Shown one piece after another: positions 1-64,000 of a DNA stretch of 64,000 nucleotides; the stretch's first letter is position 1, and every line of letters begins with the position of its first letter. The notes beneath the pieces are model-generated. The model saw nothing but the letters and a program-made list of their open reading frames with translations. It was not told where the DNA came from and ran no database searches. Origin of the DNA: Calothrix sp. PCC 7103 (GTDB taxonomy: Bacteria > Cyanobacteriota > Cyanobacteriia > Cyanobacteriales > Nostocaceae); the NCBI RefSeq assembly GCF_000331305.1, contig NZ_KB217478.1:991366-1055365 (forward strand), given 5' to 3'. Both the position numbers and the translations under genes were made by a program.

Positions 1-765
1 CTTTTTCCGCGTTTAAAGTTATTTTTACGACTATGGTGACAACGAAACACAGCATCTGCAAGTCTTCCTTTAACAAGTGCTAAATCTACATAAGTGCCAT
101 AAGCTCTGTCTGCAAGAGCCACATCTTGTGGTGACAACAAATAATACATTTGTCGAGCCATAACTATTTCACTTGTATTAAAAGCTTCTATCAAAACTCC
201 CATAGCTGCTCCTGTTACTAAACTAAACATAACTACCAGTTTAGCAATTGGAAAGCCGCATCCAGGTGATTGATTCGAGTGCTGTGGATAACATAATTGA
301 TTCGCTGGTGTATCTGGCATTAAAACACTTGAACCGTCTATCATTTTTACATGACGACCACACCATAAATCTTGTGGTTGCGCCTTTTCTTCAAGATTAT
401 CTCCTGTTTTTTTAAATAAATTTTTTAAAAAGTTTTCTGATAATCTTTGTTTCGCTTTTGTGTAACCCCCTGTGTTTGATGAAGGTGTTTTCATATTACT
501 TGCTGCTAACCATGCAACTATTTTACTTACTGCGTTGCTGCAACTTTTATCTTCGTCAAGTACTTGGTACAAAAAAGCCCAAAGTGTAACAATCGGATTG
601 AAAAAACGGTTACGACGTTTTTTGGTCTGTGATGATAATTCTGTGTCTGAGATAGTTGATGACAACAGAACTTCTTCAATTGTTGATGCTGATAAGATCC
701 CTTGCCACGGTATTCCTAGAGAACGACTGAATTTTTCCGCATCGAATTTCTACACAATTAGGCAT
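1..765 (-). pseudogene. IS4-family transposase, frameshifted near the N-terminus and cut by the window edge
   Basis: Reading the minus strand from about 749 to the window edge gives one long open frame with IS4-type DDE transposase features: MIDGSSVLMPDTP carries the first catalytic Asp, and VALADRAYGTYVDL carries the second. The third catalytic residue would lie beyond the edge. That frame has an in-frame stop at 750-752 and no good start. An ATG at 765 begins MPNCVEI in another frame, and removing one base near 744 would join it smoothly to DAEKFSRSLGIPW. I infer a single-base frameshift that inactivates the gene, or a sequencing error. IS4 transposases cut and paste their element using terminal inverted repeats; I could not define the terminal repeats here. 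It borders the Dnd island. Confidence 0.8.
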
Positions 766-1362
766 AGTAGATATAATCGTTTTTTAATTTTGTCTCCAAG
801 TCCTGAATGAAGTGAAATAAAGCAGGTTTCTATTTAACCTTGCTCTCCAGTTCACTTTTTATCTTGCTTGGAGATTTTTTACATGCCTATTTTCTCATAT
901 TGCACATACTATTTCCGGAGCTAAATTCTGATATAAACATAAGTAAGCTCCTTATATTGATGTGATATTTTTAACATAGTCTTACAGGCGCCTGCCGTCG
1001 GCGCGATTTAATAACGCGCCCTCCGGTTCTATTAGTAAGTATTAAATAGTACTTAAGTATTAATTAAAATTTTATAATTGATAGTTAGATTTAAGAAAAT
1101 GATAAATTATTGTTCACCACTGATAAATTAATCGCGCTTTACGTTAATGTATAGTTGATACGTATTGGTCTTGATGCTGGCGCCGACCGTGTAAATCGCC
1201 ATCACCAAAGCGTGAAAGCCTATCATACCAATACGTTTACCCTTAAGTAAGTGCCATTCAATCGTAGGGTGCGTTACAGCATTAATGAACTAGACACAAA
1301 ATAAAAATTAAAGTACTGTAACGCACCATAAACATTGATATAGAATTACATTTTTTTTATTA
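766..1362. other. Intergenic stretch between transposase relic and Dnd island
   Basis: No convincing gene. It holds small palindromic pieces: GGCGCG/CGCGCC arms at 1000-1020, a 10-bp inverted pair ACGTATTGGT / ACCAATACGT near 1160 and 1230, and the inverted repeat at 1268-1327 listed separately. The upstream end of the IS element should lie in the first part of this stretch, but I could not define its terminal repeat. Confidence 0.5.
1268..1327. repeat. 60-bp inverted-repeat element, GGTGCGTTACAG ... CTGTAACGCACC
   Basis: Perfect 12-bp arms at 1268-1279 and 1316-1327 enclose an AT-rich centre. Two further elements with the same architecture (GGTGCGTGACGC arms) lie at 24503-24561 and 31012-31071, so this is a dispersed MITE/REP-like family. 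It sits just downstream of the minus-strand DGQHR gene and could act as its transcription terminator. Confidence 0.8.
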
Positions 1363-2526
1363 TTACCACCCCAATGATGCTTTTACGACTGTGACAGCAT
1401 CACCAATAGCGCCAGCCCCAAATATAATGTAATTATTGTCTGATTTTGTGTTCTTAGGGTCTACCCTAACTAAACTACCTCGCCAAAGTTCATGTTCTCT
1501 TGACCAATCAAGTTGTGCAAGCTCAGAAACTTTAGATGCATCGAATCGATTATTTGCTTTATCATAAGTATAATAAAGCATCCTTCCTAAGAATTGTATA
1601 CCCATACTTACGCCTAATAAGCATTCTTTCTTGAAATTATTTACCTCATCAAAAGTTAATTTTTCTACGCTTGTTTGGGCTATTGGTAGAGTTTGTACGC
1701 ACTCAGAAAAGAACTGATTTAAACATGAAGCTAAAGCTTGCGAGCATTCTTCAACAGGAAAGTCATCTAACTGATCATTTTGGCTATCAGCAAAAGCATA
1801 ACTTACAAGCGTAGCTATGTAATTACTTGTATAAATTAGTTTACCTTTCTTATCAGGTGCCTTCTTTACCCTATCTGTTTTACCGCGAAACATTGAAACC
1901 TGTTCTATCAATTTGTTTGTAATACCAGTTCTACCAGACGCTTCACCAAAGGATAATAACAAAGATTTATCTACAGGTTTGGCTTGTGCCATATCTCGAA
2001 AGTCTATTTGACACTGACGAAAGTTACTCTCTAATATTAGGTTAACCGGGAAATAATCTTCGTTTATTAATGCTCCTAGTGTACTTTGTGCTATTTCACT
2101 AATCGCTTTGATGCGATGTTGACCATCAGTAACGTCTAATTTCACATCATGAGGAATAATTACTAAACAAAAACCTTGACCTAATTCAATGACTGTAATA
2201 TCTTCAGGCGCCACGTTTGCTGTTAATGTAGCAAGAAGCCAAGGTTCTTTATTACTCGCACGTTCAATAACGTAGTCTTTGATTTCTTCTACATGACCCT
2301 TAATTTCTGGACGGTCTTTACCTGAATCAGGGTTATTAGCAGTTAGTGGTTTCGCTTGAAGAAGATTAGCTATATCAGCACCAGGAACATTAATTTGCAA
2401 CATCGTTCGTTGTCCCTGCTTAAAAATTAATCCAGAGTAACACCGCTTAGATTTGTATTTATCCAAGTAAGGTTTTAAAACTGGATAAACAAGACTATGA
2501 TGAATACCATTATCGGGTGTACTCAT
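1363..2526 (-). CDS. DGQHR-domain protein, DndB-type (387 aa)
   Basis: The signature DGQHR is at residues 134-138 in the context LDVTDGQHRIKAIS. It is followed by a downstream block, FRDMAQAKPVDKSLLLSF, matching the F-x-x-(L/M)-x-(Q/R)-x-A pattern seen in DndB. DndB is the DNA-binding repressor or modulator of phosphorothioation operons. The gene lies in tandem with another DGQHR gene (113 bp apart, same strand) and both diverge from dndC, which suits an autoregulatory or modification-tuning role. It is the most diverged of the three DGQHR proteins here. The start at ATG 2526 (MSTPDNG) has no competitor nearby. Family assignment is firm; whether it is the orthologue of the E. coli/Salmonella repressor is inference. 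Confidence 0.8.
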   Translation of the reverse strand: MSTPDNGIHHSLVYPVLKPYLDKYKSKRCYSGLIFKQGQRTMLQINVPGADIANLLQAKPLTANNPDSGKDRPEIKGHVEEIKDYVIERASNKEPWLLATLTANVAPEDITVIELGQGFCLVIIPHDVKLDVTDGQHRIKAISEIAQSTLGALINEDYFPVNLILESNFRQCQIDFRDMAQAKPVDKSLLLSFGEASGRTGITNKLIEQVSMFRGKTDRVKKAPDKKGKLIYTSNYIATLVSYAFADSQNDQLDDFPVEECSQALASCLNQFFSECVQTLPIAQTSVEKLTFDEVNNFKKECLLGVSMGIQFLGRMLYYTYDKANNRFDASKVSELAQLDWSREHELWRGSLVRVDPKNTKSDNNYIIFGAGAIGDAVTVVKASLGW

Positions 2527-2638
2527 ATCAATTATTTATATATAGGATGTGCTAATAATTAGTCTACATAGTAAGTGATATTTAATACTACGCAGACCAT
2601 TAAAATCACAGTATATAACACACTTCCAATAAGTGTGT

Positions 2639-4234
2639 CTACAAAACAGGTGGAAGCATAATTTCTTTAGAGTCTACAAAGTCACCCTCAAAATTTATCG
2701 TCTGATTCTCGAAGGTTCTTGCTTTTGCAAGACTTGAGCGTAATTTCGCGCGCTCAACTGAATCTTGGACTCCACCCAAAATATATATTAGTAATTTTGC
2801 TGCTAAGTCTTTTCCAGCTACGAGTATTCGCTTGCGGTTAGGGTCATATAAAATACCGTACCATATGGATTTTGGAAACTCAATGTTACTAAAACCACCT
2901 TCACGGTCAAATTTACGGAGCTTCTTAAAAATCTTTTCGAGCGATAGTTCTTTTTTGAAGACTAAAACACCTAGCGCTTGAACTACTGCAACTTGACCAA
3001 CTGGACGGAAAAGCATGTTTCCCTCTCCACTCTCTTTCTCAAAGCTAAAGCGTCGTAGTGATGGTGTGTCCTCTTCTTCTAAAACTTTATAGCTCGATAG
3101 ACTGGCTAAATAATCAAACAGCTTATGAAACTCAGCAATTCCTTCGGACAATTCATCGCTCTCAGGACGTTTGGGGACTAAACCTTTTTCTTGTTTCCAA
3201 TGTGGATATTTCTGTCCTAAGTAGCGCTCTGACATTTCTTTGAGTGCTTGCAGCGTTGTCAAGACTGTAGATTTTGTGGCAACAGTCGCACTATTCCAGT
3301 TTACGCGCGCTTTTCTATCCTCACGTTGTTCTAATAAGGGATGGGTAACAGCTATTTTTCTTGCGGCAATAGAGAAACCATCATCTTCATCTAGCTGTGT
3401 CAGCTGACCTTTGGTTAAAGGTACTGCCATTAGGTTGACGTGGACAAAAATCGAGCGTACTCTTTGCCTTGCTTCTTCGCGCGTTTCTCCAATCCCTACT
3501 GCTGATATAAACTCGATACCAATTTTTTCTTGTGGTATGTTTTTTAGGTAACTTTGTGAAATGTCGAATTGTTCGACTAAATCATCAATAGTTATAAATG
3601 ATTCGTAAGGAGTCTTGTCTCTTTTATAACGTTGAAGCTTGCGTGCGGAAAGCAATTCTATTAAACCTTGCACTCCCATTAAACGATGCTGCCCGTCTAA
3701 GGCATAAATAGTTACATCTTCATCAGATATATTGAGTAAGCCAAATTTCTTTCCGCTATCCAATGGGGTAAATTCTATAGCAGACCTTCTAGCTTTTCCT
3801 TTGTTATCCCACTCTTCTGCGTGTGGAATGTCTACCCAAGGTTGGTTGACAACTACCAAAACTGGGGGAAATTTATGGTGCTTACGCGATGCAAGATATT
3901 GTACCAAAGCTGATTGACGTGACCAGTCGATAGGGCGCTGTTGAATTTCGTCGATACTTTCGGCATCTATCTCGATATTGCCTGTTTGAGGATTATACTT
4001 GTGACGAAGCAAAGGTAAATATGAAGCAAAGTTAACCCGATTCGCAAACCATTCGAGAGTAACAGAGCCTACATATGCTTCTGTACCACCCATTTCAACT
4101 TTTTGCACTGGGATTTGATTATTATTGTCGAAACACTTATCGAGGAGTTGAGTAAGCACCTGTTTATCGGTGGTTCCTCCCACTGTGTAAGAACCTGTAG
4201 TATCCTTAACTTGCTTAGATGTTCTGGCGCCCAT
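2639..4234 (-). CDS. DGQHR-domain protein, long form (531 aa)
   Basis: DGQHR lies at residues 180-184 (IYALDGQHRLMGVQG). A second shared block, RSIFVHVNLMAVPLTKGQL followed by DEDD, corresponds to the conserved F-x-x-L/V-N-x-x-A segment of DndB. At 531 residues it is far longer than a typical DndB of about 360 aa, with extra sequence on both sides of the core. It is transcribed divergently from dndC across a 281-bp gap, so it is well placed to control that promoter. Its start codon overlaps a GGCGCC palindrome (ATGGGCGCC). The precise role is unknown; a DNA-binding regulator or a phosphorothioate-site factor are both possible. Confidence 0.8.
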   Translation of the reverse strand: MGARTSKQVKDTTGSYTVGGTTDKQVLTQLLDKCFDNNNQIPVQKVEMGGTEAYVGSVTLEWFANRVNFASYLPLLRHKYNPQTGNIEIDAESIDEIQQRPIDWSRQSALVQYLASRKHHKFPPVLVVVNQPWVDIPHAEEWDNKGKARRSAIEFTPLDSGKKFGLLNISDEDVTIYALDGQHRLMGVQGLIELLSARKLQRYKRDKTPYESFITIDDLVEQFDISQSYLKNIPQEKIGIEFISAVGIGETREEARQRVRSIFVHVNLMAVPLTKGQLTQLDEDDGFSIAARKIAVTHPLLEQREDRKARVNWNSATVATKSTVLTTLQALKEMSERYLGQKYPHWKQEKGLVPKRPESDELSEGIAEFHKLFDYLASLSSYKVLEEEDTPSLRRFSFEKESGEGNMLFRPVGQVAVVQALGVLVFKKELSLEKIFKKLRKFDREGGFSNIEFPKSIWYGILYDPNRKRILVAGKDLAAKLLIYILGGVQDSVERAKLRSSLAKARTFENQTINFEGDFVDSKEIMLPPVL

Positions 4235-4450
4235 ATGAATTTTTAAAAACGAGGGTTGACATAAGAGTCAAATTTTTTAACAATTATATGTCTGTAGTGT
4301 AGTTTTTAAAAACCATATAATGCTATATTTTATTATAAATATTTTTACTTAATATCCAGTAACAATTGTTATAATCACGTTACAGCTATTTTGGGTTATC
4401 TTTGTAAAGAAATGATAAGAATAATAAGTGAAATTAGTTTGATACTTGTT

Positions 4451-4475
4451 AAGTCCGCTTCGGTCGCGCGGACTT
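4451..4475 (+). promoter_or_regulatory. Stem-loop in the leader of dndC
   Basis: A perfect 8-bp stem, AAGTCCGC / GCGGACTT, with a 9-nt loop (TTCGGTCGC) is followed by the T-rich run TTTATTTG, about 40 bp before the dndC ATG. In form it resembles an intrinsic terminator or attenuator in the leader, or an operator between the divergent DGQHR gene and dndC. No reader peptide was found. Confidence 0.5.
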
Positions 4476-4515
4476 TATTTGTGAGGTGTAATTTTGTGTT
4501 AGGTAGGGAACTCGT

Positions 4516-6159
4516 ATGGCAAAAGTAAAAACAGCAGACAGTAAAGGTCAGCAAAAGCGTGGATTACCAGAGTTTATCGAAGATGTTCAAGCTCTAACAA
4601 AAGAAATTCAAGATTTATACTGCTTAGACGCTGTACCCTGGTGTCTTGGCTACAGTGGTGGCAAAGATAGTACTGCGACTTTACAGTTAATATGGAATGC
4701 TATAGCCCAACTTCCACTAGAAAAACGTAAAAAAACCATATACGTAATTACAACAGATACTCTTGTAGAAAATCCTTATGTTTCCAATTGGGTACGCAAA
4801 TCTTTAGAGCAAATCAAAGTCGCCGCTAACTCACAGCAAATGCCAATGGAACCCCATTTGTTACAACCAGAATGGAAAGAGACATTTTGGGTTGGATTAA
4901 TTGGCAAAGGGTACCCTGCACCAAGAAGAAAATTTCGTTGGTGTACAGAGCGTTTAAAAATTAGCCCATCAAACCGTTTTATTCGAGATGTAATTCGCTC
5001 CTTTGGGGAAGCTATTGTAGTTTTAGGGATTCGGAAAGCAGAAAGCGCTCCACGTGCAAAACGGATGAAAGAGTGGGAGGCAAAGCGAGTTCGCGACCAT
5101 CTCAGTCCTAATATGAACTTACCAAACTCTTTAGTGTATAGTCCAATTGAAGATTGGCGAAATGACGAAGTTTGGCTTTATTTAATGCAGTGGGAAAATC
5201 CTTGGGGATATAGTAACAAGGATTTGTTTAGTATGTACAGAGGCGCCAGTGCTGATAACGAATGTCCACTGGTTGTAGATACATCAACACCGAGTTGTGG
5301 GAGTTCTCGTTTTGGATGTTGGGTTTGTACATTAGTAAGCGAAGATAGCTCACTTTCGGCAATGATTCACAACGACGAAGAGAAAGAATGGTTACAACCA
5401 CTTTTAGATCTTCGTAGAGAATTAGATGTAGAAGATGAAGACCGTTCATGGAGAGATTTTAGACGTAGAACCGGAAATGTCCAATTATATGAGCGTAATA
5501 TAGAAGGGGATATTTCTGTAGAACCAATTCCTGGTCCATATATAAAAGAAGCGCGTGAACATTGGCTCAGAACACTTTTAACTGTTGAGCAAAAGTTACG
5601 ACGCGATGCACCAAAAGATATGAACGATATAACATTAATTTCTCTTGAGGAATTAAGTGAAATTCGTCGTATCTGGTTAGAAGAAAGACACGAGTTCGAT
5701 GATAGTTTACCTCGCATTTATAAAGAAGTGACTGGAGAAGAATTTAAAGACCCGCGTCCAGGTGCTGGCTATAGTTTACTTGGTAGCGATGAATGGGAAG
5801 TACTCGAAGAAATTTGTGATGGTGATGCTATGCATTTAGAATTAATTGCAAAGCTATTAAACACTGAGTATCAGTTTCGTAAGCGCGCGCGTCGTGTGGG
5901 AATTTATGATGAGTTATTAAAGTGCTTTGAAACAAGCTCACGCTCACAAGAAGAAGCAATTAAAAACGCTCACTTCAAGAAAGATTTAAAAGATGCAGTG
6001 AGTGAAGGTAACCTTCAGAAGGTCAAACAATTAACCATAGGAGATGCTTTACTCTCCGAAGAAAATTCCTCTAATAATTCATCTTTAAACGCAAATGACA
6101 ACAATGATTCAACTGCATCAATAAATTGGGGAAAAAAGAAGTACAAATCTAAAGATTGA
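4516..6159 (+). CDS. dndC: DNA phosphorothioation protein DndC (PAPS-reductase-like ATP pyrophosphatase)
   Basis: DndC activates the DNA backbone for sulfur insertion, using an N-type ATP-pyrophosphatase fold and a 4Fe-4S cluster. The PP-loop SGGKDST is at residues 47-53. Four candidate cluster cysteines are visible: C143 (FRWCTERLK), C261, C268 and C271 (CGSSRFGCWVC). Length 547 aa is normal. The C-terminal ~40 residues are Asn/Ser-rich and low complexity. Start at ATG 4516 (MAKVKTAD), preceded by a purine-rich GGTAGGGAA. dndD follows 221 bp downstream on the same strand. The cysteine desulfurase DndA that normally feeds DndC is absent here, so a chromosomal IscS/SufS probably substitutes (inference from other dndA-less clusters). 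Confidence 0.95.
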   Translation: MAKVKTADSKGQQKRGLPEFIEDVQALTKEIQDLYCLDAVPWCLGYSGGKDSTATLQLIWNAIAQLPLEKRKKTIYVITTDTLVENPYVSNWVRKSLEQIKVAANSQQMPMEPHLLQPEWKETFWVGLIGKGYPAPRRKFRWCTERLKISPSNRFIRDVIRSFGEAIVVLGIRKAESAPRAKRMKEWEAKRVRDHLSPNMNLPNSLVYSPIEDWRNDEVWLYLMQWENPWGYSNKDLFSMYRGASADNECPLVVDTSTPSCGSSRFGCWVCTLVSEDSSLSAMIHNDEEKEWLQPLLDLRRELDVEDEDRSWRDFRRRTGNVQLYERNIEGDISVEPIPGPYIKEAREHWLRTLLTVEQKLRRDAPKDMNDITLISLEELSEIRRIWLEERHEFDDSLPRIYKEVTGEEFKDPRPGAGYSLLGSDEWEVLEEICDGDAMHLELIAKLLNTEYQFRKRARRVGIYDELLKCFETSSRSQEEAIKNAHFKKDLKDAVSEGNLQKVKQLTIGDALLSEENSSNNSSLNANDNNDSTASINWGKKKYKSKD

Positions 6160-6380
6160 TTTAGCATTACCCAATAGCTAACAATTCATTCAACAATACG
6201 TATCTAGAGACAATGTATATAATGTCTCTAAACAAATTATAAATATTTTTCTCTCCTCACGTATTATTTATTTGTGTTCTTAGCGACTATTTGAACTATA
6301 ATCTTCATGTGCAAAGGAGTAAAAGGCTATCACTAATATTGCATCGTATGCATCTACATAGCTCTAAATAAAAAACTATT

Positions 6381-8381
6381 ATGAAATTTATTGAACTAGT
6401 ATTACAAAACTTTGGGCCATATAGCGGGAGAAACGTTATCAATCTTGACACAGAAGTTGAGAAAGACACTTCACGTCCAATTTTACTGCTAGGTGGAATG
6501 AATGGTGGTGGAAAAACAACATTTATGGACGCGATACGTCTCGCACTGTACGGACATCGTGCAGAGTGTTCAACTCGCGGAAACCTAAGCTATAGTGATT
6601 TTTTAAGTCAATGTGTTAATAACAACGCAACTCCTGTTGATAAAACAAGGATTGAATTAACTTTTGAACATATTCAAGAGAATAAACCTGTAGTATATAA
6701 AATTGTACGCTATTGGGATAGTATTCCAAAAGAAGGCAAAGACTCATTAGGTGTTCTAGAATTAGACCCGAAAGTACCTGATGGGTTGACAAGAGAAGAA
6801 TTAGTAAATACGTGGGATGATTATATTGAAAATATACTACCCGTAGGAATTTCTAATTTATTCCTCTTTGATGGTGAGCAAGTTAAAGAGCTAGCAGAGC
6901 AAGAAATTCCTCCTGCTGCTGTTGCAGATGCTATACGCGCGATGTTGGGATTGGAACTTGCAGATAAGTTAGCAGTTGACATTGAAATTCTAGTAAACCG
7001 TAAGCGTAAAGAATTAGCTGATACAAAAGATTTAGCTGACCTTGAAGAAATTGAGGAAAAGCTGAGTTTGTTGCAAGAAAAACACATAAAAATCAAAGAC
7101 GAAGAAGCTTCATATATAAGTTATTTCAATCAAGCGGAAAAAGATCAAAAAGATGCACTAGATAAATTTGTTGCAGAAGGAGGAAAAATAGCGGCAGAAC
7201 GTAATCAATTAGAAAAACAGCGTGACCAAAAAGTATTAGAAGTTGAGGAAGCACGCTTGGGTATGTGTAATATTTCAGCAAACGTATTACCCTTAGCTTT
7301 AGTAGAAAATTTACTTATCCAGGGACAAACACAAGGAGAAAAAGAATATCGTATACAACAAGCACAAATTGCTAGCGACATATTATATGAGCGTGATAAG
7401 CGTTTGTTAGATTTAATATCAAAATTAGATATCTCATCTGAAGAATCTCAAAAAATTAAGAGTTTTTTGGATGAAGATATTACAACTCTCAATGCTAACC
7501 TGATACAGCCAGAAGAACTTTGGTTATTACCAGATGCAGATAGTTTAAGCCAGTTAAGTAATATATTTTATCAGTTACAAAACACAAAAATCTTAGCCAA
7601 ACAACAATTAAAGATATTAAAGCAAAAAGAAGATGAAATAATCACCTTAGAACGTCAAATTCAAACTGCTGCTTCTCCTGAAGAATATACTTATTTAGTA
7701 GATGTTTTGAAAAAAGCTCAGAAAAAAGTTACTGAAGCAGGTGCCAAATGCGAGTCTATTAAAGGACGTGTTCGAGAATTAGAAGTAGAAATTGAAAGCA
7801 CAAAGAAAGATTTAAGAGAATATACCACACAAACAATAGATAAGAAAAACACCGAGCATATTATTGCAGCATCGGCAAGAGTACAACAAACACTCAAACT
7901 ATTTCGAGAAAAGCTGACATTAAAAAAATTAAATAAGCTAGAAATTGAAATAACTGAATGCTTTCGCTATTTGCTGCACAAATCAGATTTAGTTCATCGT
8001 GTAGCCATTAATACTGATAACTTTAGCCTTTCATTATACGACGTGCGCGGTAAAGGTGTTCCCAAACATCGTTTATCGGCAGGGGAAAAGCAACTTTTAG
8101 CCATTGCTTTTTTATGGGGACTCGCGCGCGTTTCTGGGCGCCGTTTACCTGTTGCCATTGACACACCATTAGGGCGCCTTGACTCATCGCACCGAGGAAA
8201 CTTAGTAGAAAAATACTTCCCAGCAGCAAGTCACCAGGTAATATTACTCTCCACTGATACAGAAATAGGTAAAGCCGAAGTTGAAAAACTCCGAGAAAAC
8301 GAAGCTATTGCGCGCGAGTATCTACTTAAGTATGACTCGGAAAAGCGTCAAACTTCGGTAGTTGATGGATATTTCTGGTAA
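6381..8381 (+). CDS. dndD: DNA phosphorothioation protein DndD (SMC/RecN-like ATPase)
   Basis: DndD is an ABC-class ATPase of the SMC/Rad50 type that nicks or opens DNA during phosphorothioate insertion. Walker A GGMNGGGKTT is at residues 38-47. The C-terminal ABC signature LSAGEKQLL is near residue 565, followed by Walker B and D-loop VAIDTPLGRLD. Between the two half-sites lies a long Glu/Lys-rich coiled coil (roughly residues 190-530). Length 666 aa fits the family. It lies between dndC and dndE in the standard C-D-E order. Codon use is AT-rich. GGCGCC, frequent elsewhere, is absent from position 5248 to 8137, which spans most of dndC and dndD. Confidence 0.95.
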   Translation: MKFIELVLQNFGPYSGRNVINLDTEVEKDTSRPILLLGGMNGGGKTTFMDAIRLALYGHRAECSTRGNLSYSDFLSQCVNNNATPVDKTRIELTFEHIQENKPVVYKIVRYWDSIPKEGKDSLGVLELDPKVPDGLTREELVNTWDDYIENILPVGISNLFLFDGEQVKELAEQEIPPAAVADAIRAMLGLELADKLAVDIEILVNRKRKELADTKDLADLEEIEEKLSLLQEKHIKIKDEEASYISYFNQAEKDQKDALDKFVAEGGKIAAERNQLEKQRDQKVLEVEEARLGMCNISANVLPLALVENLLIQGQTQGEKEYRIQQAQIASDILYERDKRLLDLISKLDISSEESQKIKSFLDEDITTLNANLIQPEELWLLPDADSLSQLSNIFYQLQNTKILAKQQLKILKQKEDEIITLERQIQTAASPEEYTYLVDVLKKAQKKVTEAGAKCESIKGRVRELEVEIESTKKDLREYTTQTIDKKNTEHIIAASARVQQTLKLFREKLTLKKLNKLEIEITECFRYLLHKSDLVHRVAINTDNFSLSLYDVRGKGVPKHRLSAGEKQLLAIAFLWGLARVSGRRLPVAIDTPLGRLDSSHRGNLVEKYFPAASHQVILLSTDTEIGKAEVEKLRENEAIAREYLLKYDSEKRQTSVVDGYFW

Positions 8382-8537
8382 AAAAGGACAATGGGAATAA
8401 TGTTAAGCTGTTTTGATGTAGCTACATATTTTTTGACTCAAGCTTCTGAGGATGCAGGAGATTTAATATCAAATATTTTAAAACTCAGCTAGATACTGAA
8501 GAAGCTGGTTGATGTAATAAACTTTATCCTAGACTCT

Positions 8538-8557
8538 AGACGCGACATGTCGCGTCT
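8538..8557. repeat. REP-like palindrome AGACGCGACATGTCGCGTCT
   Basis: Perfect 20-bp palindrome in the dndD-dndE gap. The same family (outer arms GTAGAGACGCGA) recurs at 12727-12746, 37098-37117, 47471-47498, 49779-49806 and 52377-52404. Confidence 0.85.
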
Positions 8558-8561
8558 CTAC

Positions 8562-8596
8562 ACTCAGCACTCAGAACTTTATACTCAGCACTCATT
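8562..8596 (+). repeat. ACTCAGC heptamer repeat directly before the dndE ATG
   Basis: Heptamers ACTCAGC at 8562-8568 and 8583-8589 and the variant ACTCATT at 8590-8596 run up to the ATG of dndE, occupying the place of a Shine-Dalgarno sequence. The same heptamers recur near 17207, 22808, 51190, 51319 and 63076. Confidence 0.75.
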
Positions 8597-8989
8597 ATGG
8601 AACCACCTCTTGAACGTGTCAAATTATCGCAAACGGCAAAAGAGCAATTAATTAAGCTCAAGCGCATTACAAAAATAGACCAATGGAATATATTATGCCG
8701 TTGGGCACTATGTCGTTCGCTAGCAGAACCAACACCTCCCTCCCCAGTACCTATAAAATTAGATAGTAATGTAGAGATGAATTGGCGTGTATTTGGGGGT
8801 GAGATTTCGGATATGCTGTTAATTGCCCTTAAACAGCGTTGTTATAACGATGGTTTAGGCACCACAAAAGAAGTTTTAGCAGAACAGCTAACATTACATC
8901 TACACCGTGGGATTGGTTATTTGGCTGGCGACCAAAAGATTAAGAAAATTGAAGATTTCATTGAGTTAACTGTAAATACACCGTCTTAG
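8597..8989 (+). CDS. dndE: DNA phosphorothioation protein DndE
   Basis: Small basic protein of 130 aa, within the usual DndE range, beginning MEPPLERVKLSQTAKEQL and containing WNILCRWALCRSL and the C-terminal helix HLHRGIGYLAGD typical of DndE. DndE forms tetramers that bind nicked double-stranded DNA and is essential for phosphorothioation. It is third in dndC-D-E, 215 bp after dndD; the gap is mostly dispersed repeats. Immediately upstream of the ATG is the heptamer repeat rather than a recognisable Shine-Dalgarno, so translation may be leaderless-like or repeat-dependent. The next gene, on the opposite strand, ends 28 bp beyond the stop. Confidence 0.92.
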   Translation: MEPPLERVKLSQTAKEQLIKLKRITKIDQWNILCRWALCRSLAEPTPPSPVPIKLDSNVEMNWRVFGGEISDMLLIALKQRCYNDGLGTTKEVLAEQLTLHLHRGIGYLAGDQKIKKIEDFIELTVNTPS

Positions 8990-9016
8990 ATAACCCATAA
9001 AAATCAAGCTCAGTAA

Positions 9017-9928
9017 TTAGTGTTTGATTTTTAACGTTGAGATGCTTTTATATCTTGGGTTCCGCAAAGCCTCCACCCAACCTACTATAGTCTTACTCAG
9101 GAGTATCCTCTTGCTCATTTTCTGGTAAAAATTGTCTAATTCTTCATCAGAAGGTCGAAACTGTTTAAATTTCGCATCAATTTCTAACCCACCATTATAA
9201 GCTTTAAGCAATACTTCATTCGTTTCATAGAATGTTGGCAAGGTCGCAATATAAGGGTCATGTACTTTCTTTGGAGATATTTGCTTGGAACCTAAGTTAC
9301 CCAAAACTAGTATCTTTAATGTATCATTCTCTTTTATTAAACGACGTGAAAGAATTGCCACTGCATCATCTTCATCAATGGCAATATTCATTCCAGAGCT
9401 TGTAGGTTTTGCTCGACGATTTAAAGTCGAAAATAATCTTCGAGTTCTCTCAAGTCCTTCTTTTGTATTCTCGTGCTTTAAAATAATAACAGTAATTTCT
9501 TCTTTGCCTAGCTCAGGATTTTGTCTTAACGCTTCTTGAATTGACTTGAGTCGGTGTTGACCATCTAAAGCATAATATATTTGGCTACCATCAAACCGTA
9601 GTAAACCAAATCCATAACTTGAACGGTCTTCTTTATCATCAATTAAATGATGTTCATCTACTTTAACGTGGGAAAACACCGGTTCTCCTCCATATACAGC
9701 TACCACTAAGGCGCCGTAAAATCTTTGTGGTGCATTCAAAAGATAAGGTACCATTTCCTTTTGCACACGGTCTTGAATTTCTCTTTGAATTAATTCATCT
9801 AAATGTTGATTTGCGTGAATCTCTTCTGCTAACCTACATTCACGTGAAACTTTACCTAATTTCATCACGGTGACATAATAATCCCAATCACCCATTTTCG
9901 CTTTTAATGCTGGTACATAATCTGCCAT
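9017..9928 (-). CDS. DGQHR-domain protein, DndB-type, apparently truncated at the C-terminus (303 aa)
   Basis: DGQHR at residues 122-126 (YYALDGQHRLKSIQEAL) is followed by a DndB-like block, RRLFSTLNRRAKPTS, and then IDEDDAV. It is the closest of the three paralogues here to the DndB pattern. Start at ATG 9928 (MADYVPALK) with AGGGAAG upstream. At 303 aa it is shorter than a typical DndB (~360 aa). Its last ~25 residues, including VGWVEALRNPR, are encoded by a dispersed repeat (9055-9085) that also occurs near 44885 and 17307. I infer that repeat insertion replaced the native C-terminus. It converges with dndE. Confidence 0.8.
   Translation of the reverse strand: MADYVPALKAKMGDWDYYVTVMKLGKVSRECRLAEEIHANQHLDELIQREIQDRVQKEMVPYLLNAPQRFYGALVVAVYGGEPVFSHVKVDEHHLIDDKEDRSSYGFGLLRFDGSQIYYALDGQHRLKSIQEALRQNPELGKEEITVIILKHENTKEGLERTRRLFSTLNRRAKPTSSGMNIAIDEDDAVAILSRRLIKENDTLKILVLGNLGSKQISPKKVHDPYIATLPTFYETNEVLLKAYNGGLEIDAKFKQFRPSDEELDNFYQKMSKRILLSKTIVGWVEALRNPRYKSISTLKIKH
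9055..9085. repeat. Dispersed ~31-bp repeat, TTGGGTT...CCACCCAACCTAC
   Basis: Matches the elements at 44885-44914 and, in reverse orientation, 17307-17336. It lies inside the 3' end of the DGQHR gene and is translated there. Confidence 0.75.
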
Positions 9929-15883: not shown

Positions 15884-16375
15884 TTGAATTCCTTTTTAAT
15901 ACCGTCATATAAAATTCGCAAAGGCTCGACTCTAGATAGAGCGTTACTGGTAAAGTTCATGCAACGGACTTACCAAGACATTTTTCCGAACCAGGATTTT
16001 TCACATTTGTCGAAGACTGTTGAGCAATATCTATCTAGCGAAACCCCTCTGTGGTGGGTAAACTTTACAGACACTCAAACTCTCACCCAAGAAACTTCTC
16101 CTGTAGCTTGTCTTTGGATGGGAAACGCTATCGACCAAATTACAGGTCAGCGTCATGCTCACCTATTTTTACTCTACGTTGTTCCTGAACATCGGCGCCG
16201 AGGTGTAGGTAGAGCATTAATGGAATATGCACAAACCTGGGCAAGAGCGAGAGGAGACAAGCAAATTGGTTTACAAGTGTTTTCTTCAAACATACCTGCA
16301 CTTAACTTATATAATCAACTTGGTTTTCAAACACAATCTTTGTGGATGATCAAACCATTGGAAAATGGAGAGTGA
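15884..16375 (+). CDS. GNAT-family N-acetyltransferase
   Basis: 163 aa with the acetyl-CoA-binding motif A of GNAT enzymes: LFLLYVVPEHRRRGVGRALMEYAQTWARARG, with the R/Q-x-x-G-x-G/A loop as RRGVGRA. The C-terminal motif B, IGLQVFSSNIPALNLYNQLGFQ, is the typical N-x-x-A-x-x-L-Y-x-x-x-G-F. The substrate is unknown; RimI-like protein or small-molecule acetylation is possible. The start is TTG 15884 (MNSFLIPSYKIRKG), since the RKG-x-x-x-D start of the fold must be included and no ATG precedes it. Confidence 0.88.
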   Translation: MNSFLIPSYKIRKGSTLDRALLVKFMQRTYQDIFPNQDFSHLSKTVEQYLSSETPLWWVNFTDTQTLTQETSPVACLWMGNAIDQITGQRHAHLFLLYVVPEHRRRGVGRALMEYAQTWARARGDKQIGLQVFSSNIPALNLYNQLGFQTQSLWMIKPLENGE

Positions 16376-16445
16376 AAAGCGGCCTTCCCCAAATTAAAAT
16401 CAAAAAGGTGTGGAAGATGACCGCTTGTAATGGTACTTTTTATTT

Positions 16446-17204
16446 ATGTATGATGAAGATGATCTCAGCCTACTCGACCCAGAAGCCGAGCTAGAAAGTC
16501 CTCTCGACAGTATTGAACCGCTGAATGAAGAATCAGAGGCACAATTACCTGACCCGGATGAGATGCTCGCGCTTCTTGATAGTCCCGTGCCACAGCAAAG
16601 AATGCTAGCGGCACGTGCTTTTAGTGACATAGAAGATGCGCGCGCAACTTCTCCCTTAATACGTTTATTAACAGACACTTGTCCTTTAGTAAGGGTAAGT
16701 GCAGCTTATGGAATTGGACGTAATCCCAGTTCAGAAGCAGTAGAACCACTGATATATCAGTTAAATCGCGACTGGAACGGCTACGTGCGTAAAGGCGTAG
16801 TTTGGGCATTAGGAAACTGTCGCGACCGTAGAAGTTTAGCCCCCTTAGCTAATGCACTTAAAACAGATATTTCGGCTGTACGACTGTGGGCAGCTAGCGC
16901 ACTTGCTCAAATGGCAAACATCGGTTATGACGCTGTTGTTGGCGCCATGCCTCCTTTAGTAGCAGCTTTGGTTCAAGACTCAGTTGGTGCAGTTCGGAGT
17001 AATTGCGCTTGGTCTATTGGACAATTATGTCGTGAGCTACCTTCTAACGTAGTTTACGCCACCGCAATTGATGCCTTAATCCAAACCTTTGCCGAAGACA
17101 CCGACCTAGGAGTACGCGAAGACGCAAAAGCCGCTATTTTAGGTGTCGGAGATACGCGCGGACTTCAAATGATAGAAACGCTGGAACAAGAAGGATGGTT
17201 TTAA
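16446..17204 (+). CDS. HEAT-repeat protein of the phycobilin lyase/NblB-like type
   Basis: 252 aa. An acidic N-terminal tail (residues 1-40, many Asp/Glu) precedes about five HEAT repeats. Recurrent units such as RMLAARAFSDIEDARATSPL, VRVSAAYGIGR, VRKGVVWALGNCRDRRSLAPL, VRLWAASALAQM and VRSNCAWSIGQL show the alternating helix pattern. HEAT proteins of this kind in cyanobacteria include CpcE/NblB relatives acting on phycobilisomes. Whether this one is a lyase or a general scaffold cannot be told from sequence. Start at ATG 16446 (MYDEDDLSL). Confidence 0.85.
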   Translation: MYDEDDLSLLDPEAELESPLDSIEPLNEESEAQLPDPDEMLALLDSPVPQQRMLAARAFSDIEDARATSPLIRLLTDTCPLVRVSAAYGIGRNPSSEAVEPLIYQLNRDWNGYVRKGVVWALGNCRDRRSLAPLANALKTDISAVRLWAASALAQMANIGYDAVVGAMPPLVAALVQDSVGAVRSNCAWSIGQLCRELPSNVVYATAIDALIQTFAEDTDLGVREDAKAAILGVGDTRGLQMIETLEQEGWF

Positions 17205-17386
17205 TTAAGTGCTGAGTGGAAAGTGCTGAGTGCTGAGTAGGTTAAGAGTTAAGAGTTAATAGTTAGGAGTAGAGTGGGCACCAATACTGCTTGGTTAAGA
17301 ATAATCGTAGGTTGGGTGTAGCGTAGCGTAACCCAACAAAAGCATGAATTCGTTGGGTTTCAACCAACCTACAAATAACTTATCCG
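17205..17386. repeat. Cluster of dispersed short repeats between convergent genes
   Basis: In order: GTGCTGA heptamers (17207-17240), GAGTTAAGAGTTA-type runs, then an inverted element with GTAGGTTGGGT at 17307 and ACCAACCTAC ending at 17372, and finally a CGGATGTAA-type repeat that supplies the stop codon of the next gene. The inverted element probably forms a hairpin that terminates transcription from both sides. Confidence 0.7.
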
Positions 17387-20170: not shown

Positions 20171-20375
20171 GCCCTAATCCTCAGTTGGTTGTTTACGATT
20201 AAAATAGTTATTAGCCAATACATCATTGGCATTATCAGCGGAAGCAATCGAGTCAAAACCATTCTGCGTTCATTAAAACATTAAAGAACGCACGAAATGG
20301 AACTAATAAAAATTCCTGGCTTTCCTAGTGAAAAAAGCAGACGCTTTTAATTAAAGGTAGCTTATCACTAATAGT

Positions 20376-21698: not shown

Positions 21699-21718
21699 AC
21701 GAGAAACTATACTAATAT

Positions 21719-21793
21719 TGTCATTCTGAGCGTAGCGAAGAATCTCTTTTACTTCGTAATTTATTTAGATGCTTCACTACGTTCAGCATGACA
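21719..21793. repeat. Imperfect inverted repeat TGTCATTCTGAGCGTAG ... CTACGTTCAGCATGACA
   Basis: 75-bp hairpin element upstream of the radical SAM gene start and downstream side of uppP. Related units (TGTCATGCTGA, GCTCAGAATGACA) occur near 44534, 56525-56672 and 63022. Confidence 0.75.
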
Positions 21794-21810
21794 TAATTTT
21801 AGAGCTATAC

Positions 21811-22722: not shown

Positions 22723-22807
22723 TAACCAGACTCCCGAAGTTGCCGCGTTTTATGAATTATCCAACTTTACGTTACCAGCGTCAGCACTTCCGGGTGACAT
22801 TTAAGTC

Positions 22808-22872
22808 AAAAGTTCTGAGTGCTGGGTGAGAAGTTAGTACTCAGCACTCAGCGCTTTCTACTCATCACTCAT
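22808..22872. repeat. Inverted cluster of GTGCTGAG/ACTCAGCAC heptamers
   Basis: TTCTGAGTGCTGGGTGAG on one side faces ACTCAGCACTCAGCGC and ACTCATCACTCAT on the other, so the region can fold into a hairpin between the divergent uppP and DUF3120 genes. Confidence 0.65.
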
Positions 22873-22970
22873 TAGGGGTATAATGTTTTTTAAATGCCCT
22901 AGGGGGGGATTTATTGTTATGTTACTTTAAATAAGATAAAGTTAAGTAACAAATATTAAAATTAAAAATT

Positions 22971-60226: not shown

Positions 60227-61405
60227 TTACATCCGTTCACATCCGTTGCCACTATACCGCATTCTCAAAGCTTCTACATTACTCAAATGTTTCTGCACTA
60301 ACTCTTGGGGATAAAGTACTTGTGCTGATGCCATGTATTTATTTACCCAGAGTAAAAATTCGTCAAAAGAGCGTGGAGGCAATGGCACAATATAATCTAC
60401 GTGTAATATTTCTCCTGTAACTTTATCTTTGGCGCCTTTAATAATTTTTTGTTTAGGATGGCGCCGTTCTCCTTCTAAAATAAAAGTAGTCACAGGTGGG
60501 TAAAATCGGACTTTAACAGGAATTAGTTCTAATTGTCCTGACAGTTCAAGGTATTGTTCTTGTTGTTCTCCTAGCTTTAAACCCCAACCGTTTTCGAGTA
60601 ACTGATAAGCTTTTGTTAAGCTTGTACGTTGTGCATCGATACCTCGACCTGATGTATCAATAATTTTGCAGTGGTCTGCGAAGCGGTTAACTCGACCAAT
60701 GGCAAAATGTCCATTAGTGTACTCGTACAGCAAATACCAAGCAATATCATGATAGATTAGCTGCAATGGGTAAACTTGAATGGTGCCAATACGGTTATTT
60801 TTATAAGGGTCACTGCTACGTAAAATTTCTATTAATTGACCTTGACTAATTGCTTTTTCGACTACAGATAATTGATGAAATAAATTATTTCGGTTTTTGC
60901 CCAAGCTTGCCATTTCTTCTGGGTCTGTGTAAACAATTACTCTGTTGAGATATTGTCTTACAGGGTAAAAAAATTCTCCTTTTGATTCTATATCTAACCC
61001 ACGCAGGCGCCGACTTAATTGGTCGCATATGCGTCGAACTTGGGGGTCTCCCTGAAATTTAGCTTGTGTAAATAAGGCATTGAGGGCAACTTTAAATTCT
61101 TGACTCGACATGGCGCCAGTACCTAAATAATAGCCCCAACGATACATTCGACGCTCAAGAATACCGTATTTTCGCAGTGTTTCTAAATCTTTTCGCAAAG
61201 TCGCAATACCAGGGTAGCCATATGGAAACTTAATACCAAACTCTGCTGCTAACTCTTGAAGTCGTAATTGTACTTCTACTAATGCATCGTGATGTTTTTG
61301 TGGCGCCTTCATACTATCACGACAACCGACACCAGGATACTTTAAAAGAGTTGCAATTAGTAGTAGTAACCTTTCTAATGCTTGGGTGTCGCTGTAAGAA
61401 TGCAT
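60227..61405 (-). CDS. WYL-domain transcriptional regulator beside the CRISPR locus
   Basis: 392 aa. N-terminal winged-helix-like region (RLQELAAEFGIKFPYGYPG then TLRKDLETLRKYGILERR), a middle helical domain, and a WYL-type domain around residues 205-290 (IQVYPLQLIYHDIAWYLLYEYTNGHFAIGRVNR: the conserved W-Y-L is WYL). WYL proteins often control cas and other phage-defence genes by sensing nucleic acids. Divergent from csx18-cas1-cas2 across a 256-bp gap that should hold both promoters. Its last codons (GNGCERM*) are in CGGATGTAA repeats. Start at ATG 61405. Confidence 0.9.
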   Translation of the reverse strand: MHSYSDTQALERLLLLIATLLKYPGVGCRDSMKAPQKHHDALVEVQLRLQELAAEFGIKFPYGYPGIATLRKDLETLRKYGILERRMYRWGYYLGTGAMSSQEFKVALNALFTQAKFQGDPQVRRICDQLSRRLRGLDIESKGEFFYPVRQYLNRVIVYTDPEEMASLGKNRNNLFHQLSVVEKAISQGQLIEILRSSDPYKNNRIGTIQVYPLQLIYHDIAWYLLYEYTNGHFAIGRVNRFADHCKIIDTSGRGIDAQRTSLTKAYQLLENGWGLKLGEQQEQYLELSGQLELIPVKVRFYPPVTTFILEGERRHPKQKIIKGAKDKVTGEILHVDYIVPLPPRSFDEFLLWVNKYMASAQVLYPQELVQKHLSNVEALRMRYSGNGCERM

Positions 61406-61928: not shown

Positions 61929-62002
61929 TTGGCAACGGATGTAACAGATGTAACGGATGGTTTGTGCGGTGTAAGCACAACTGGGTAATCCGTATTCTTA
62001 AT

Positions 62003-62995
62003 ATGCAGACACTTTATGTTTCTCAGCAGAACTGCTACGTAGCGCTGCAAAAGGAATCATTAATTATCAAGCAGGGGGATATCATCTTGGGGGAGGTGCA
62101 GTTACCTTTGCTTGAGCAAATTCTGATTTTTGGGCAGTCGCAATTAACAACACAAGCTATTCGTGCTTGTTTATGGCGAGATATTCCAATTGCTTATCTA
62201 TCGCGGATGGGATATTGTTACGGTCGCATTTTACCTATTGCGCGCGGATATAGGCAATTATCACGTTACCAGCAGCAGTTATCTATAACTGAACAGTTGA
62301 TAACTGCCCGTGCAATTATTCAAGGCAAGTTAAAAAATAGTCGCACTTTATTACGGCGCCAGCGTAAGCGACTAGAGTCAGCAAATTTAGAGACAGTATT
62401 ACAAAGCTTAGATTACTTAGCTTCGCAAGCAAGTCAAGCAGATAACCGCGAAAGGTTGATGGGATTTGAAGGTGCTGGCGCCGCTCAATACTTCTCAGCT
62501 TTTGGAGATTGTTTCACAAACTCTGACTTTGTATTTACTGCCCGTAGCAGGCGCCCGCCAGGAAATCCTGTGAACGCAATGTTAAGTTTTGGCTATCAAG
62601 TTCTGTGGAATCACTTATTCGCCTTAATCGAATTACAAGGACTTGACCCCTATTATGCTTCACTCCACCAAGCACATGATGGACATGCCGCACTTGCTTC
62701 TGATTTAATCGAAGAATTTCGGGCGCCTATTGTTGACTCATTAGTGTTGTGGTTAGTAAATAGTAGGGTTGTTGACGCAAGAGATGATTTTGACTTTCGT
62801 GACGGTGGCTGTTATTTAAACGACACCGGAAGAAGAAAATATTTACAAGCATTTGTCCAGCGCATGTCAGAAGAAATACAAGACGACAGCGGAGAAAAGC
62901 AACCAAGATGGGACATATTAATGCAACAAGTCAAAGCATACAAACAATTTGTCTACAACCCCAGCCACCAATATCAACCCTACCGAATCAGATAA
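62003..62995 (+). CDS. cas1: CRISPR integrase subunit Cas1
   Basis: Cas1 inserts new spacers at the leader end of the array. 330 aa from ATG 62003 (MQTLYVSQQNCYVAL); a further-upstream start would add a non-conserved leader and run into repeats. Catalytic residues can be placed: E in LMGFEGAGAAQYF, H in LHQAHDGHAALASDL (H-x5-H context) and E/D in LIEEFRAPIVD. The GAGAAQYF form suggests the cyanobacterial type III/I-D clade, but a tree would be needed. Next in order is cas2. Confidence 0.95.
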   Translation: MQTLYVSQQNCYVALQKESLIIKQGDIILGEVQLPLLEQILIFGQSQLTTQAIRACLWRDIPIAYLSRMGYCYGRILPIARGYRQLSRYQQQLSITEQLITARAIIQGKLKNSRTLLRRQRKRLESANLETVLQSLDYLASQASQADNRERLMGFEGAGAAQYFSAFGDCFTNSDFVFTARSRRPPGNPVNAMLSFGYQVLWNHLFALIELQGLDPYYASLHQAHDGHAALASDLIEEFRAPIVDSLVLWLVNSRVVDARDDFDFRDGGCYLNDTGRRKYLQAFVQRMSEEIQDDSGEKQPRWDILMQQVKAYKQFVYNPSHQYQPYRIR

Positions 62996-63092
62996 TTAAA
63001 AATTAGGAGTTAACCCTAAATTGTCATTCTGAGCGTAGCGAAGAATCTCATCCGGCGCCTACAAAACAATAACCTACTCAGCACTCACTACT

Positions 63093-63374
63093 ATGTTCCT
63101 ATACGTTGTCGCATACGACCTTCCCTGCGACAAACGACGCAAAAAAGTCTCAGACCTACTCGAAGGATACGGATGTAGAGTTCAATACTCAGTATTTGAA
63201 TGCCAGCTAACCCCTGCAAAAATCAAAGAACTGCGTAAAAGGCTCAGTAAAGTTATAAAATTAGATGAGGACAGCGTGAGATTTTACCCATTATCCCAGC
63301 ACACATTAGGACAAGTCGAAATTATGGGCATTGGCCCTCCAGTCATTTCGCCACCTACTTCGACGATTATCTAA
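63093..63374 (+). CDS. cas2: CRISPR-associated protein Cas2
   Basis: 93 aa ferredoxin-like protein that joins Cas1 in the integrase. The catalytic-type Asp is D9 in VVAYDLPCDKRRKKVSDLLEG; QYSVFECQLTP and the C-terminal VRFYPLSQHTLG are typical. ATG 63093 follows ACTCAGC heptamers (63076-63092) rather than a ribosome site. The 97-bp cas1-cas2 gap is made almost wholly of dispersed repeats, including TGTCATTCTGAGCGTAG and a GGCGCC. The array begins 185 bp after the stop. Confidence 0.95.
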   Translation: MFLYVVAYDLPCDKRRKKVSDLLEGYGCRVQYSVFECQLTPAKIKELRKRLSKVIKLDEDSVRFYPLSQHTLGQVEIMGIGPPVISPPTSTII

Positions 63375-63558
63375 ATAGTGCGAGTGGGTTAGCAATTCCC
63401 TCTAAATGCCGACTTTCTCGTTGAGGCCCTCGCCGCCTTGCTGTATAAGAGTTCCAAGAACTTTCATCATGATTTTTACCCATCTCTCGCGGAAAATTTC
63501 AGACCCCCTCGCAAACTGCCTCTGGGCGCCTTACACAGCAAGAGGTTAAAATGGAGGG
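63375..63558 (+). promoter_or_regulatory. CRISPR leader
   Basis: 184 bp between the cas2 stop and the first repeat; AT-moderate, no coding frame of interest (small frames overlap the array). By position it should hold the array promoter and the Cas1-Cas2 integration site. AGGTTAAAATGGAGGG lies immediately before repeat 1. One GGCGCC at 63525. Confidence 0.7.
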
Positions 63559-64000
63559 GTCCCTACTCGTTAGGGAAATTAATTGATTGGAAACAACTAA
63601 AATTGTTGAGAATAAGCAGAAATCGCTAAGTCCCTACTCGTTAGGGAAATTAATTGATTGGAAACGCAAACCTAAAAACATGATTACTAGTTTTATATCT
63701 AGTCCCTACTCGTTAGGGAAATTAATTGATTGGAAACACCATTGCTTCGCGGTAAGACGTAGTGTGCGCCTCATCCAAGTCCCTACTCGTTAGGGAAATT
63801 AATTGATTGGAAACACAAGCAATTATTCTTTCTACAAAACTGCTGAAATAAAAGGTCCCTACTCGTTAGGGAAATTAATTGATTGGAAACTTGTCCCGTC
63901 TCCGTCAAAATCAAATTCAACGTTTGTATTGTGTCCCTACTCGTTAGGGAAATTAATTGATTGGAAACCTAACAAAAACATTGGGAGAAGAATAAGATTG
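63559..64000 (+). CRISPR. CRISPR array, six identical 36-bp repeats, continues beyond the window
   Basis: Repeats at 63559-63594, 63630-63665, 63702-63737, 63779-63814, 63855-63890 and 63933-63968; five full spacers of 35, 36, 41, 40 and 42 bp, then a partial one. All repeats are identical: they begin GTCCCTACTCGTTAGGGA and end GATTGGAAAC. Internal stem CCCTA / TAGGG suits a processed crRNA hairpin; the end ATTGGAAAC is the probable 5' handle. The type cannot be settled without the effector genes, which are not in the window. The leader-proximal end is here, so these are the newest spacers. Confidence 0.98.

Follow-up and report, generated by a model that had tools for sequence, protein, structure and literature searches.

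GGCGCC as an alternate highly iterated palindrome across the genus of Calothrix sp. PCC 7103, and its probable tie to an orphaned BsaHI-type methyltransferase

The reason why cyanobacteria carry the highly iterated palindrome HIP1 (GCGATCGC) has been, to our knowledge, an open question for some 30 years. HIP1, the form carried by most of these bacteria, has been tied to orphan methyltransferases, and a model has been advanced that derives highly iterated palindromes, or HIPs, from mismatch repair directed by G-meC (Elhai 2015, PMC4390886, cited here and below as far as its available text goes). The same work identified an alternate HIP, GGCGCC, in Calothrix PCC 7103 and in 19.3 kb of Calothrix D253, noted for PCC 7103 the loss of HIP1 and the presence of two GRCGYC methyltransferases, and presented exceptional HIPs as sporadic and not found in clades, only HIP1 being persistent. 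The base methylated under the GRCGYC specificity was called unknown there, though the model needs it. On the enzyme side, the accessible part of another study (PMC2413257) reports that BsaHI, HgiDI and HgiGI recognise GRCGYC, that M.BsaHI methylates the central cytosine, and that relatives of these systems, including the putative HindVP, share the motifs WGKNQF, SPERRFD and DKAF. Here we deal with 64,000 bases of Calothrix sp. PCC 7103 (contig NZ_KB217478.1, positions 991,366 to 1,055,365; this whole stretch is called the window), with the GGCGCC word that crowds it, and with the genome and genus around it. Because Elhai 2015 describes the GGCGCC alternate HIP of this very strain, the enrichment is already known; what is new here is its extension to the genus, a firmer tie to an orphaned BsaHI-type methyltransferase and the maintenance of the sites. 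Altogether, we regard it as probable that GGCGCC is the alternate HIP of the genus, that it is the site of this orphaned enzyme, and that it is kept by a process favouring the site. Among the papers searched on GGCGCC with HIP1 or with Calothrix, subscription papers being outside the scope, only PMC4390886 was found.

The window (38.7% G+C) holds 101 copies of GGCGCC against about 3.4 expected from base composition, in good accordance with the hugely over-represented word (about 100 sites, some 3 expected) announced by an earlier reading of the letters alone, hereafter the sequence-only reading.

Positions 987 to 63530, strand (.): 101 GGCGCC sites, of which 87 fall within called genes and 14 elsewhere
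First bases of sites 1-17: 987, 1179, 2207, 4226, 5242, 8137, 8173, 9710, 9977, 10529, 11027, 12967, 13406, 13974, 14331, 14512, 15326
First bases of sites 18-34: 15637, 15715, 16194, 16941, 17744, 18678, 18990, 19767, 19804, 21146, 21841, 22414, 23138, 23222, 23557, 23730, 24810
First bases of sites 35-51: 25248, 25350, 25415, 26496, 28636, 30215, 30338, 30726, 32636, 34053, 34469, 34754, 34871, 35844, 36644, 37428, 37816
First bases of sites 52-68: 38844, 38987, 39313, 40259, 41148, 42341, 42700, 45045, 45481, 45546, 46306, 48346, 48652, 48825, 48918, 49215, 49293
First bases of sites 69-85: 50022, 50860, 51415, 52130, 52229, 52772, 53459, 53601, 53850, 54275, 54321, 55167, 55288, 55549, 56258, 56343, 56843
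First bases of sites 86-101: 57193, 57985, 58207, 59231, 60431, 60460, 61006, 61112, 61302, 61877, 62355, 62477, 62550, 62722, 63054, 63525

The whole genome (11,584,393 bases in 12 contigs) contains 17,704 copies, or 1,528 per Mb, and in 444 kb of it the word reaches 42.9 times the expectation of an order-2 Markov model with the sites masked, the corresponding values for three genus-mates being 30.0 to 46.8 times. The reversed word CCGCGG has 8 copies in the genome and, since it is itself depleted, the Markov model is the better control; the probable cause of its depletion is an Eco29kI-type system (L019; PF09517; SacII-like specificity) encoded on contig C12. An origin of the GGCGCC excess in base composition, in codon usage or in a mobile repeat seems to us hardly credible. 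GGC GCC is indeed a Gly-Ala codon pair, and this is the frame of 188 of the 350 coding sites among the 398 present in 264 kb (the window plus the 200 kb to its right), but the sites occur in all three reading frames and outside genes, and the single base on either side of them is near background, except for an avoidance of G on the left. The scarcity of the reversed word (an avoided word, as said) and the Markov excess tell against composition too, as does a maintenance, described below, which exceeds that of the same codons outside the sites. Two details of the sequence-only reading had to be dropped: a preference for C on the right flank was wrong, and the sites are not spread evenly through coding and non-coding DNA. 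Their spacing is random (coefficient of variation of the gaps 1.06, variance/mean 0.89-1.36 over the 398 sites), and with the open reading frames called in this analysis they are denser in coding (1.65 per kb) than in non-coding DNA (0.93 per kb).

All seven genomes of the genus returned by the genome search (PCC 7103, or G000, and six genus-mates) are rich in GGCGCC, from 7,475 copies (6.5 Mb) to 20,380 copies (12.4 Mb), approximately 1,150-1,710 per Mb, whereas none of 51 other genomes of the same family (two samples of 28 and 29, with 6 in common) exceeds 530 copies. HIP1, in turn, counts 31 to 163 copies per genome in the genus versus 535 to 7,721 in the 29 other genomes of the family for which it was counted. 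GGCGCC is an alternate HIP across the genus of Calothrix PCC 7103, in genomes without HIP1 at normal density: in PCC 7103 it is a G+C-rich palindrome far above expectation, of HIP-like density and present genome-wide, and HIP1 is low. The HIP-like element in place of HIP1 that the sequence-only reading had proposed agrees with both PMC4390886 and these genus data. Members of the genus recovered through a scan with the methyltransferase described below include Dulcicalothrix desertica PCC 7102 and Calothrix PCC 7716, NIES-4105 and HK-06. As all seven genomes share the word, its genus-wide persistence runs counter to the sporadic, non-persistent view of the published text (PMC4390886).

HIP1 and CGATCG are missing from the window, where GATC has 18 copies, and the absence of HIP1 noted by the sequence-only reading stands to that extent; in the whole genome HIP1 is rare and not absent, with 163 copies in 11.58 Mb (14.07 per Mb). 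This density and that of CAGGCGCC (158.8 per Mb in 444 kb) match the 14 and 159 per Mb published for the strain (PMC4390886), which makes it very probable that the published genome and the present one are identical. GATC stands at 0.11 of expectation. Neither the near-Markov counts of GGCGCC nor the normal density of HIP1 elsewhere in the genome, which the sequence-only reading had named as refuting its claim, were found. Clusters of HIP1 lie on contig C7 at about 654-662 kb, 2,104-2,108 kb and 2,864-2,966 kb. Fourteen 20-kb stretches, five of which were picked for such clusters, were divided into 5-kb bins. The 8 bins with at least two HIP1 copies show on average 14.8 GATC and 3.4 GGCGCC, whereas the means of the 44 HIP1-free bins are 1.0 and 8.2. 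Since GATC is higher and GGCGCC lower in the former, the DNA of these clusters was probably acquired from HIP1-bearing cyanobacteria.

Comparison with the genus-mates tells whether sites are kept. The alignments covered the 264 kb of PCC 7103 and were begun from the following stretch.

Positions 16000 to 35900, + strand: stretch with a counterpart in all six genus-mates (long matches of 77-97% identity in 6/6)

The six genus-mates were aligned over 27-190 kb each at 81-95% identity, four of them with partial coverage of the 264 kb (54 kb for G295, 83 kb for G296, 71 kb for G293 and 27 kb for G291); alignment pieces below 150 bp or overlapping better ones were dropped, as were codons with a differing amino acid or with A/T as third base. 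As all alignments are referenced to PCC 7103, the comparisons are not independent. In 6/6 of them GGCGCC was retained more often than permuted words (in G293, for instance, 88/114 versus 83/149), and synonymous changes inside the word fell to 0.19-0.55 of a local expectation which controls for codon identity and surroundings, with z of 4.6-10.1 (observed/expected 44/150.4 in G292, 18/95.6 in G294, 9/32.3 in G295, 28/61.2 in G296, 32/87.4 in G293 and 20/36.3 in G291). The same test gave 0.89, 1.00, 0.95 and 0.95 for control words made only of G+C in the four genomes run, and one-off words of GGCGCC, a further control, gave 0.72, 0.92, 1.03 and 1.08. Because synonymous changes are reduced at the sites and not at the control words, GGCGCC is held in place and not merely common.

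Such a strong synonymous maintenance is exactly what selection on a function of the site would give, be it protein binding or a signal for recombination, segregation or strand discrimination, with weak purifying selection acting on each site and repair being unbiased. A density close to that of HIP1 in relatives also suits selection, and so does the fact that 6-7 of the 9 one-off words fall below expectation in each of four genus genomes; the latter was set aside as a discriminator between repair and selection, since the avoidance of many restriction-type words in the genus confounds it. However, the binding protein or function that it calls for is hypothetical, neither the random spacing nor the higher genic density hints at a positional role, and selection would have to be effective at each of about 17,700 sites. 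We consider selection possible, with a chance well short of even. For the data at hand, the predictions of selection and of biased repair are largely alike.

Which enzyme could mark the site was approached through the C5-methyltransferases (PF00145), with 15 matches in PCC 7103. After clustering at 50% identity over the seven genus genomes, with 8 short fragments left out, two families were present in 7/7, those of L018 and L013. The L018 methyltransferase was rejected as the cause because, of 29 family members with no excess of GGCGCC, 19 have full-length relatives of it at 68-73% identity. The L013 family is represented in PCC 7103 as follows.

Contig C7, positions 8004469 to 8005407, + strand: L013, C5-methyltransferase and putative GGCGCC modifier, outside the window
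Contig C10, positions 143284 to 144168, - strand: second copy of L013, 59% identical

L013 has 313 amino acids and the C5 motifs, its orthologues are open frames in 7/7 genus genomes, and the ratio of nonsynonymous to synonymous rates (dN/dS) is 0.05-0.17 against PCC 7103. The upstream gene, RuBisCO-like by eye, is the same in 5 of the 6 genus loci compared; more distant copies exist in several genomes, and in G296 two pieces at contig ends are 95-96% identical. When named genomes were scanned with L013, 26 loci were obtained. Surroundings were compared for 18 loci outside the genus, and in 12 of them the L013-type enzyme has a member of one further protein family upstream; the nine of these proteins that were scanned all proved to be RE_HindVP (PF09519), with WGKN-F in 9/9, DKAF in 8/9 and SPERRFD in 6/9. 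This nuclease family was found in 6 of 60 genomes searched and in 0/7 of the genus, where no complete HindVP/BsaHI restriction-modification system was seen and L013 is an orphan. The motifs PCQ, ENV and GNAVP and the stretch PSPTIR-VNRP of L013 align with those of enzymes whose loci bear PF09519 (23 sequences, M.BsaHI itself not among them), and orphan and paired enzymes hardly differ in their recognition stretch around the TI motif.

The DNA around these relatives adds to the picture. Eleven loci with enzymes 59-70% identical (L099-L109) contain 3 GRCGYC words versus about 114 expected from base composition, namely 0 GGCGCC, 2 GGCGTC/GACGCC and 1 GACGTC against roughly 25, 56 and 33; these sums omit the six genus-mate loci, a fragment (L118), a partial match (L119) and L111-L117. 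The seven non-cyanobacterial loci among them (Chloroflexi, Poribacteria, Planctomycetaceae), with 3 GRCGYC words versus about 82 expected, weigh most, since many cyanobacteria of the order are GGCGCC-poor without PF09519. GRCGYC is also avoided at L113, L114, L115 and L117 (0 each). Paired relatives avoid the very word that is most enriched in the genus. Family, adjoining nuclease and site avoidance point to L013 being a GRCGYC methyltransferase of BsaHI/HgiDI type. The link to a different methyltransferase suspected by the sequence-only reading has in this way gained a candidate enzyme, but one of the broader GRCGYC kind and not specific for GGCGCC.

The way in which sites are lost bears on the methylated base. 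Polarised with G293/G291, 42 losses were recovered, 34 of them one-step, and 21/34 are C to T changes at the central cytosine (on either strand), with 7 and 4 at the outer two and 2 others. Parsimony gave only 5 gains against these 42 losses, an excess not read as net decay because it is expected when one state is favoured; of the parsimony results, the loss spectrum alone was used. In the GGC|GCC frame, where both changes are synonymous, the six comparisons (436 site comparisons) show 26 C3>T and 5 C6>T, while the same codons outside the sites show 263/1,053 and 235/1,359, which gives an odds ratio of 4.6 (Fisher p 0.0006, the comparisons sharing PCC 7103). The hot-spot base is the cytosine that M.BsaHI methylates, and we infer that the L013 orphan methylates the central cytosine, as GG-m5C-GCC.

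This commonest loss is likewise the lesion that Vsr repairs. In E. coli, Vsr enriches CCWGG, and a similar very-short-patch repair, turning the T:G of GGTGCC into C:G, could enrich the methylated word. A Vsr-like protein, the DUF559 protein VsrA, is functionally linked to a solitary C5 enzyme in Caulobacter, as the accessible part of PMC12907096 has it. Nevertheless, PF03852 was found in 0/37 genomes, the 7 of the genus included, in a search that matched 5/14 control genomes and did not extend to DUF559-type VsrA relatives, and GGTGCC/GGCACC are not depleted in four genus genomes (1.1-1.9 times expectation), so that we hold a Vsr-type origin to be unlikely. The same C to T hot spot, indicative of a C5 mark on cytosine, makes still less probable that DNA phosphorothioation drives the enrichment by marking a backbone position in or near GGCGCC. 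This idea comes from the dndB-C-D-E genes of the window at 1363-9928, a stretch of which 62-84% aligns in 6/6 genus-mates:

Positions 1363-2526 and 9017-9928: DndB-like genes (PADLOC)
Positions 4516-6159: DndC (PADLOC)
Positions 6381-8381: DndD (best PADLOC model PbeC, then DndD)
Positions 8597-8989: DndE (PADLOC)

The frame at 2639-4234 had no PADLOC match.

Under the reading that we favour, GGCGCC as the alternate HIP of the genus and site of the orphaned L013, a GRCGYC restriction-modification system would be ancestral to L013 and its nuclease would have been lost. HIP1 would already have faded, plausibly via GATC restriction, as Elhai proposed, and the GGCGCC form of the site would then have been captured and kept at HIP-like density. 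Its upkeep would most likely rely on mismatch repair biased by the methyl mark, as in the G-meC model (Elhai 2015), or otherwise on weak selection per site.

Several observations weigh against this reading. Four-fold divergence as a function of the distance from GGCGCC was tried as a test of repair range and set aside: the raw trend was strong, but within genes the effect is inconsistent (z 2.45, 0.73, 3.20 and -1.28), and less divergent genes show no consistent trend. No regular spacing was seen among the 398 sites of the 264 kb. Regarding the enzyme, the C5 families L012 (interrupted in PCC 7103) and L019 are also present in 6/7 genus genomes, and the survey dealt with C5 enzymes only; N4-cytosine methyltransferases (PF01555) could be rivals. 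The C3/C6 contrast of G292 alone is 10 versus 2 (p 0.07). A GRCGYC enzyme should mark GACGTC and GACGCC as well, for which their depletion counts against it: four genus genomes contain 5 GACGTC versus 72.7 expected, and GACGCC stands at 0.17-0.41 of expectation in the genus. The rarity of GACGTC may go back to the lost system, to conversion into GGCGCC or to another nuclease. Moreover, low GGCGCC is common in the family also without PF09519, which makes site avoidance in cyanobacterial loci weak evidence of specificity, and L111, L112 and L116, with enzymes 53-55% identical, do not clearly avoid GRCGYC (10, 22, 9 copies of its words at L111; 2, 8, 3 at L112; 1, 2, 2 versus 1.5, 4.3, 3.1 expected at L116), so the specificity argument is limited to closer relatives.

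The distribution also offers contrary cases. Genome G313 combines an L013-type enzyme (69% identical) with the absence of PF09519 and with normal HIP1 (6,611), and its 277 GGCGCC in 6.5 Mb are no excess over base composition, hence an orphan enzyme alone is insufficient. The nuclease frames of G270 and G312 are interrupted, yet GGCGCC counts there just 3 and 4. In G314, without an L013-type enzyme, HIP1 is down to 535 and GGCGCC reaches 326 in 10.7 Mb; this lack of enrichment indicates that HIP1 loss alone is insufficient too. G313 and G314, one genome each, fit Elhai's view that both events are needed.

Other words and genomes deserve a brief mention. In four genus genomes (182-444 kb each), CGCGCG is a second over-represented palindrome, at 4.3-7.3 times the order-2 expectation, with 32 copies in the window and synonymous-change ratios of 0.52, 0.97, 0.55 and 0.72, that is, signs of maintenance in 2/4 comparisons. 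Restriction-type palindromes are nearly gone from the same four samples: GATC stands at 0.11-0.34 and GGCC at 0.13-0.15 of expectation, and CCATGG, CGTACG, GTCGAC and GTGCAC have 0 copies in all four. G314 avoids GATC (11 versus 114 expected in 31.8 kb, L217-L218), and the top over-represented words of the stretch read resemble a dispersed repeat and not a palindrome. A different candidate alternate HIP appeared in G059, from another family of the same order (129 kb read, L199-L206): CGGCGCCG has 157 copies versus 4.0 expected, CAGCGCCG 74 and CGGCGCTG 87 versus 3.3 each, CRGCGCYG reaches about 2,479 per Mb, and HIP1 counts just 74 in 3.8 Mb; its L013-type enzyme (53%) has no obvious nuclease partner among the neighbours inspected by eye. 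Of five GGCGCC-rich genomes of family f9 (G170, G008, G037, G060, G193), stretches were read from G170 (80 kb), G008 (60 kb) and G060 (40 kb), and an alternate HIP was rejected for these because HIP1 predominates there and GGCGCC stands at 1.8-2.6 times the count given by base composition. Towards its right end, the window also encodes Cas1 (61964-62995), a WYL/Csx1-like gene (60227-61405) and an array resembling clustered regularly interspaced short palindromic repeats (63549-63968; 6 repeats, spacing 71-78) that may extend beyond the window end.

A substitute word, an orphan enzyme, a predicted methylated base and a measurable maintenance make the methylation-and-repair idea directly testable. 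As a tentative generalisation, possible but with a chance well below one half, HIPs could be domesticated restriction sites: the site of an orphan C5 enzyme would turn from avoided to favoured, at about one per kb, through repair biased to the methylated word, a process that would follow the loss of the nuclease and the fading of the old HIP. If true, mismatch repair directed by C5-methylation and independent of both MutH and Vsr would represent a novel repair pathway.

How does GGCGCC in this genus compare with the systems already described? With HIP1 (GCGATCGC) it shares the nature of a palindrome found chromosome-wide at about one per kb; the word is a different one, and in PCC 7103 HIP1 is nearly gone, with GATC at 0.11 of expectation. 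With Elhai 2015 it shares the word itself, described there from one genome plus 19 kb, whereas here the whole genus keeps it; GRCGYC nucleases and position-wise deviations appear in a figure of that paper, and the available text is without the loss spectrum of GGCGCC given here (PMC4390886). The solitary C5 enzyme, the thousands of sites and the deamination pressure recall Dcm/Vsr of E. coli and ScmA/VsrA of Caulobacter (PMC12907096, accessible part), from the former of which the genus differs in that no PF03852 match occurs in the 37 genomes. Lastly, enzyme family, recognition stretch and central cytosine are alike in the BsaHI/HgiDI/HindVP systems, as far as the available text of PMC2413257 describes them; in contrast to these, 7/7 genomes of the genus are without the nuclease family, and GGCGCC is enriched there instead of avoided.

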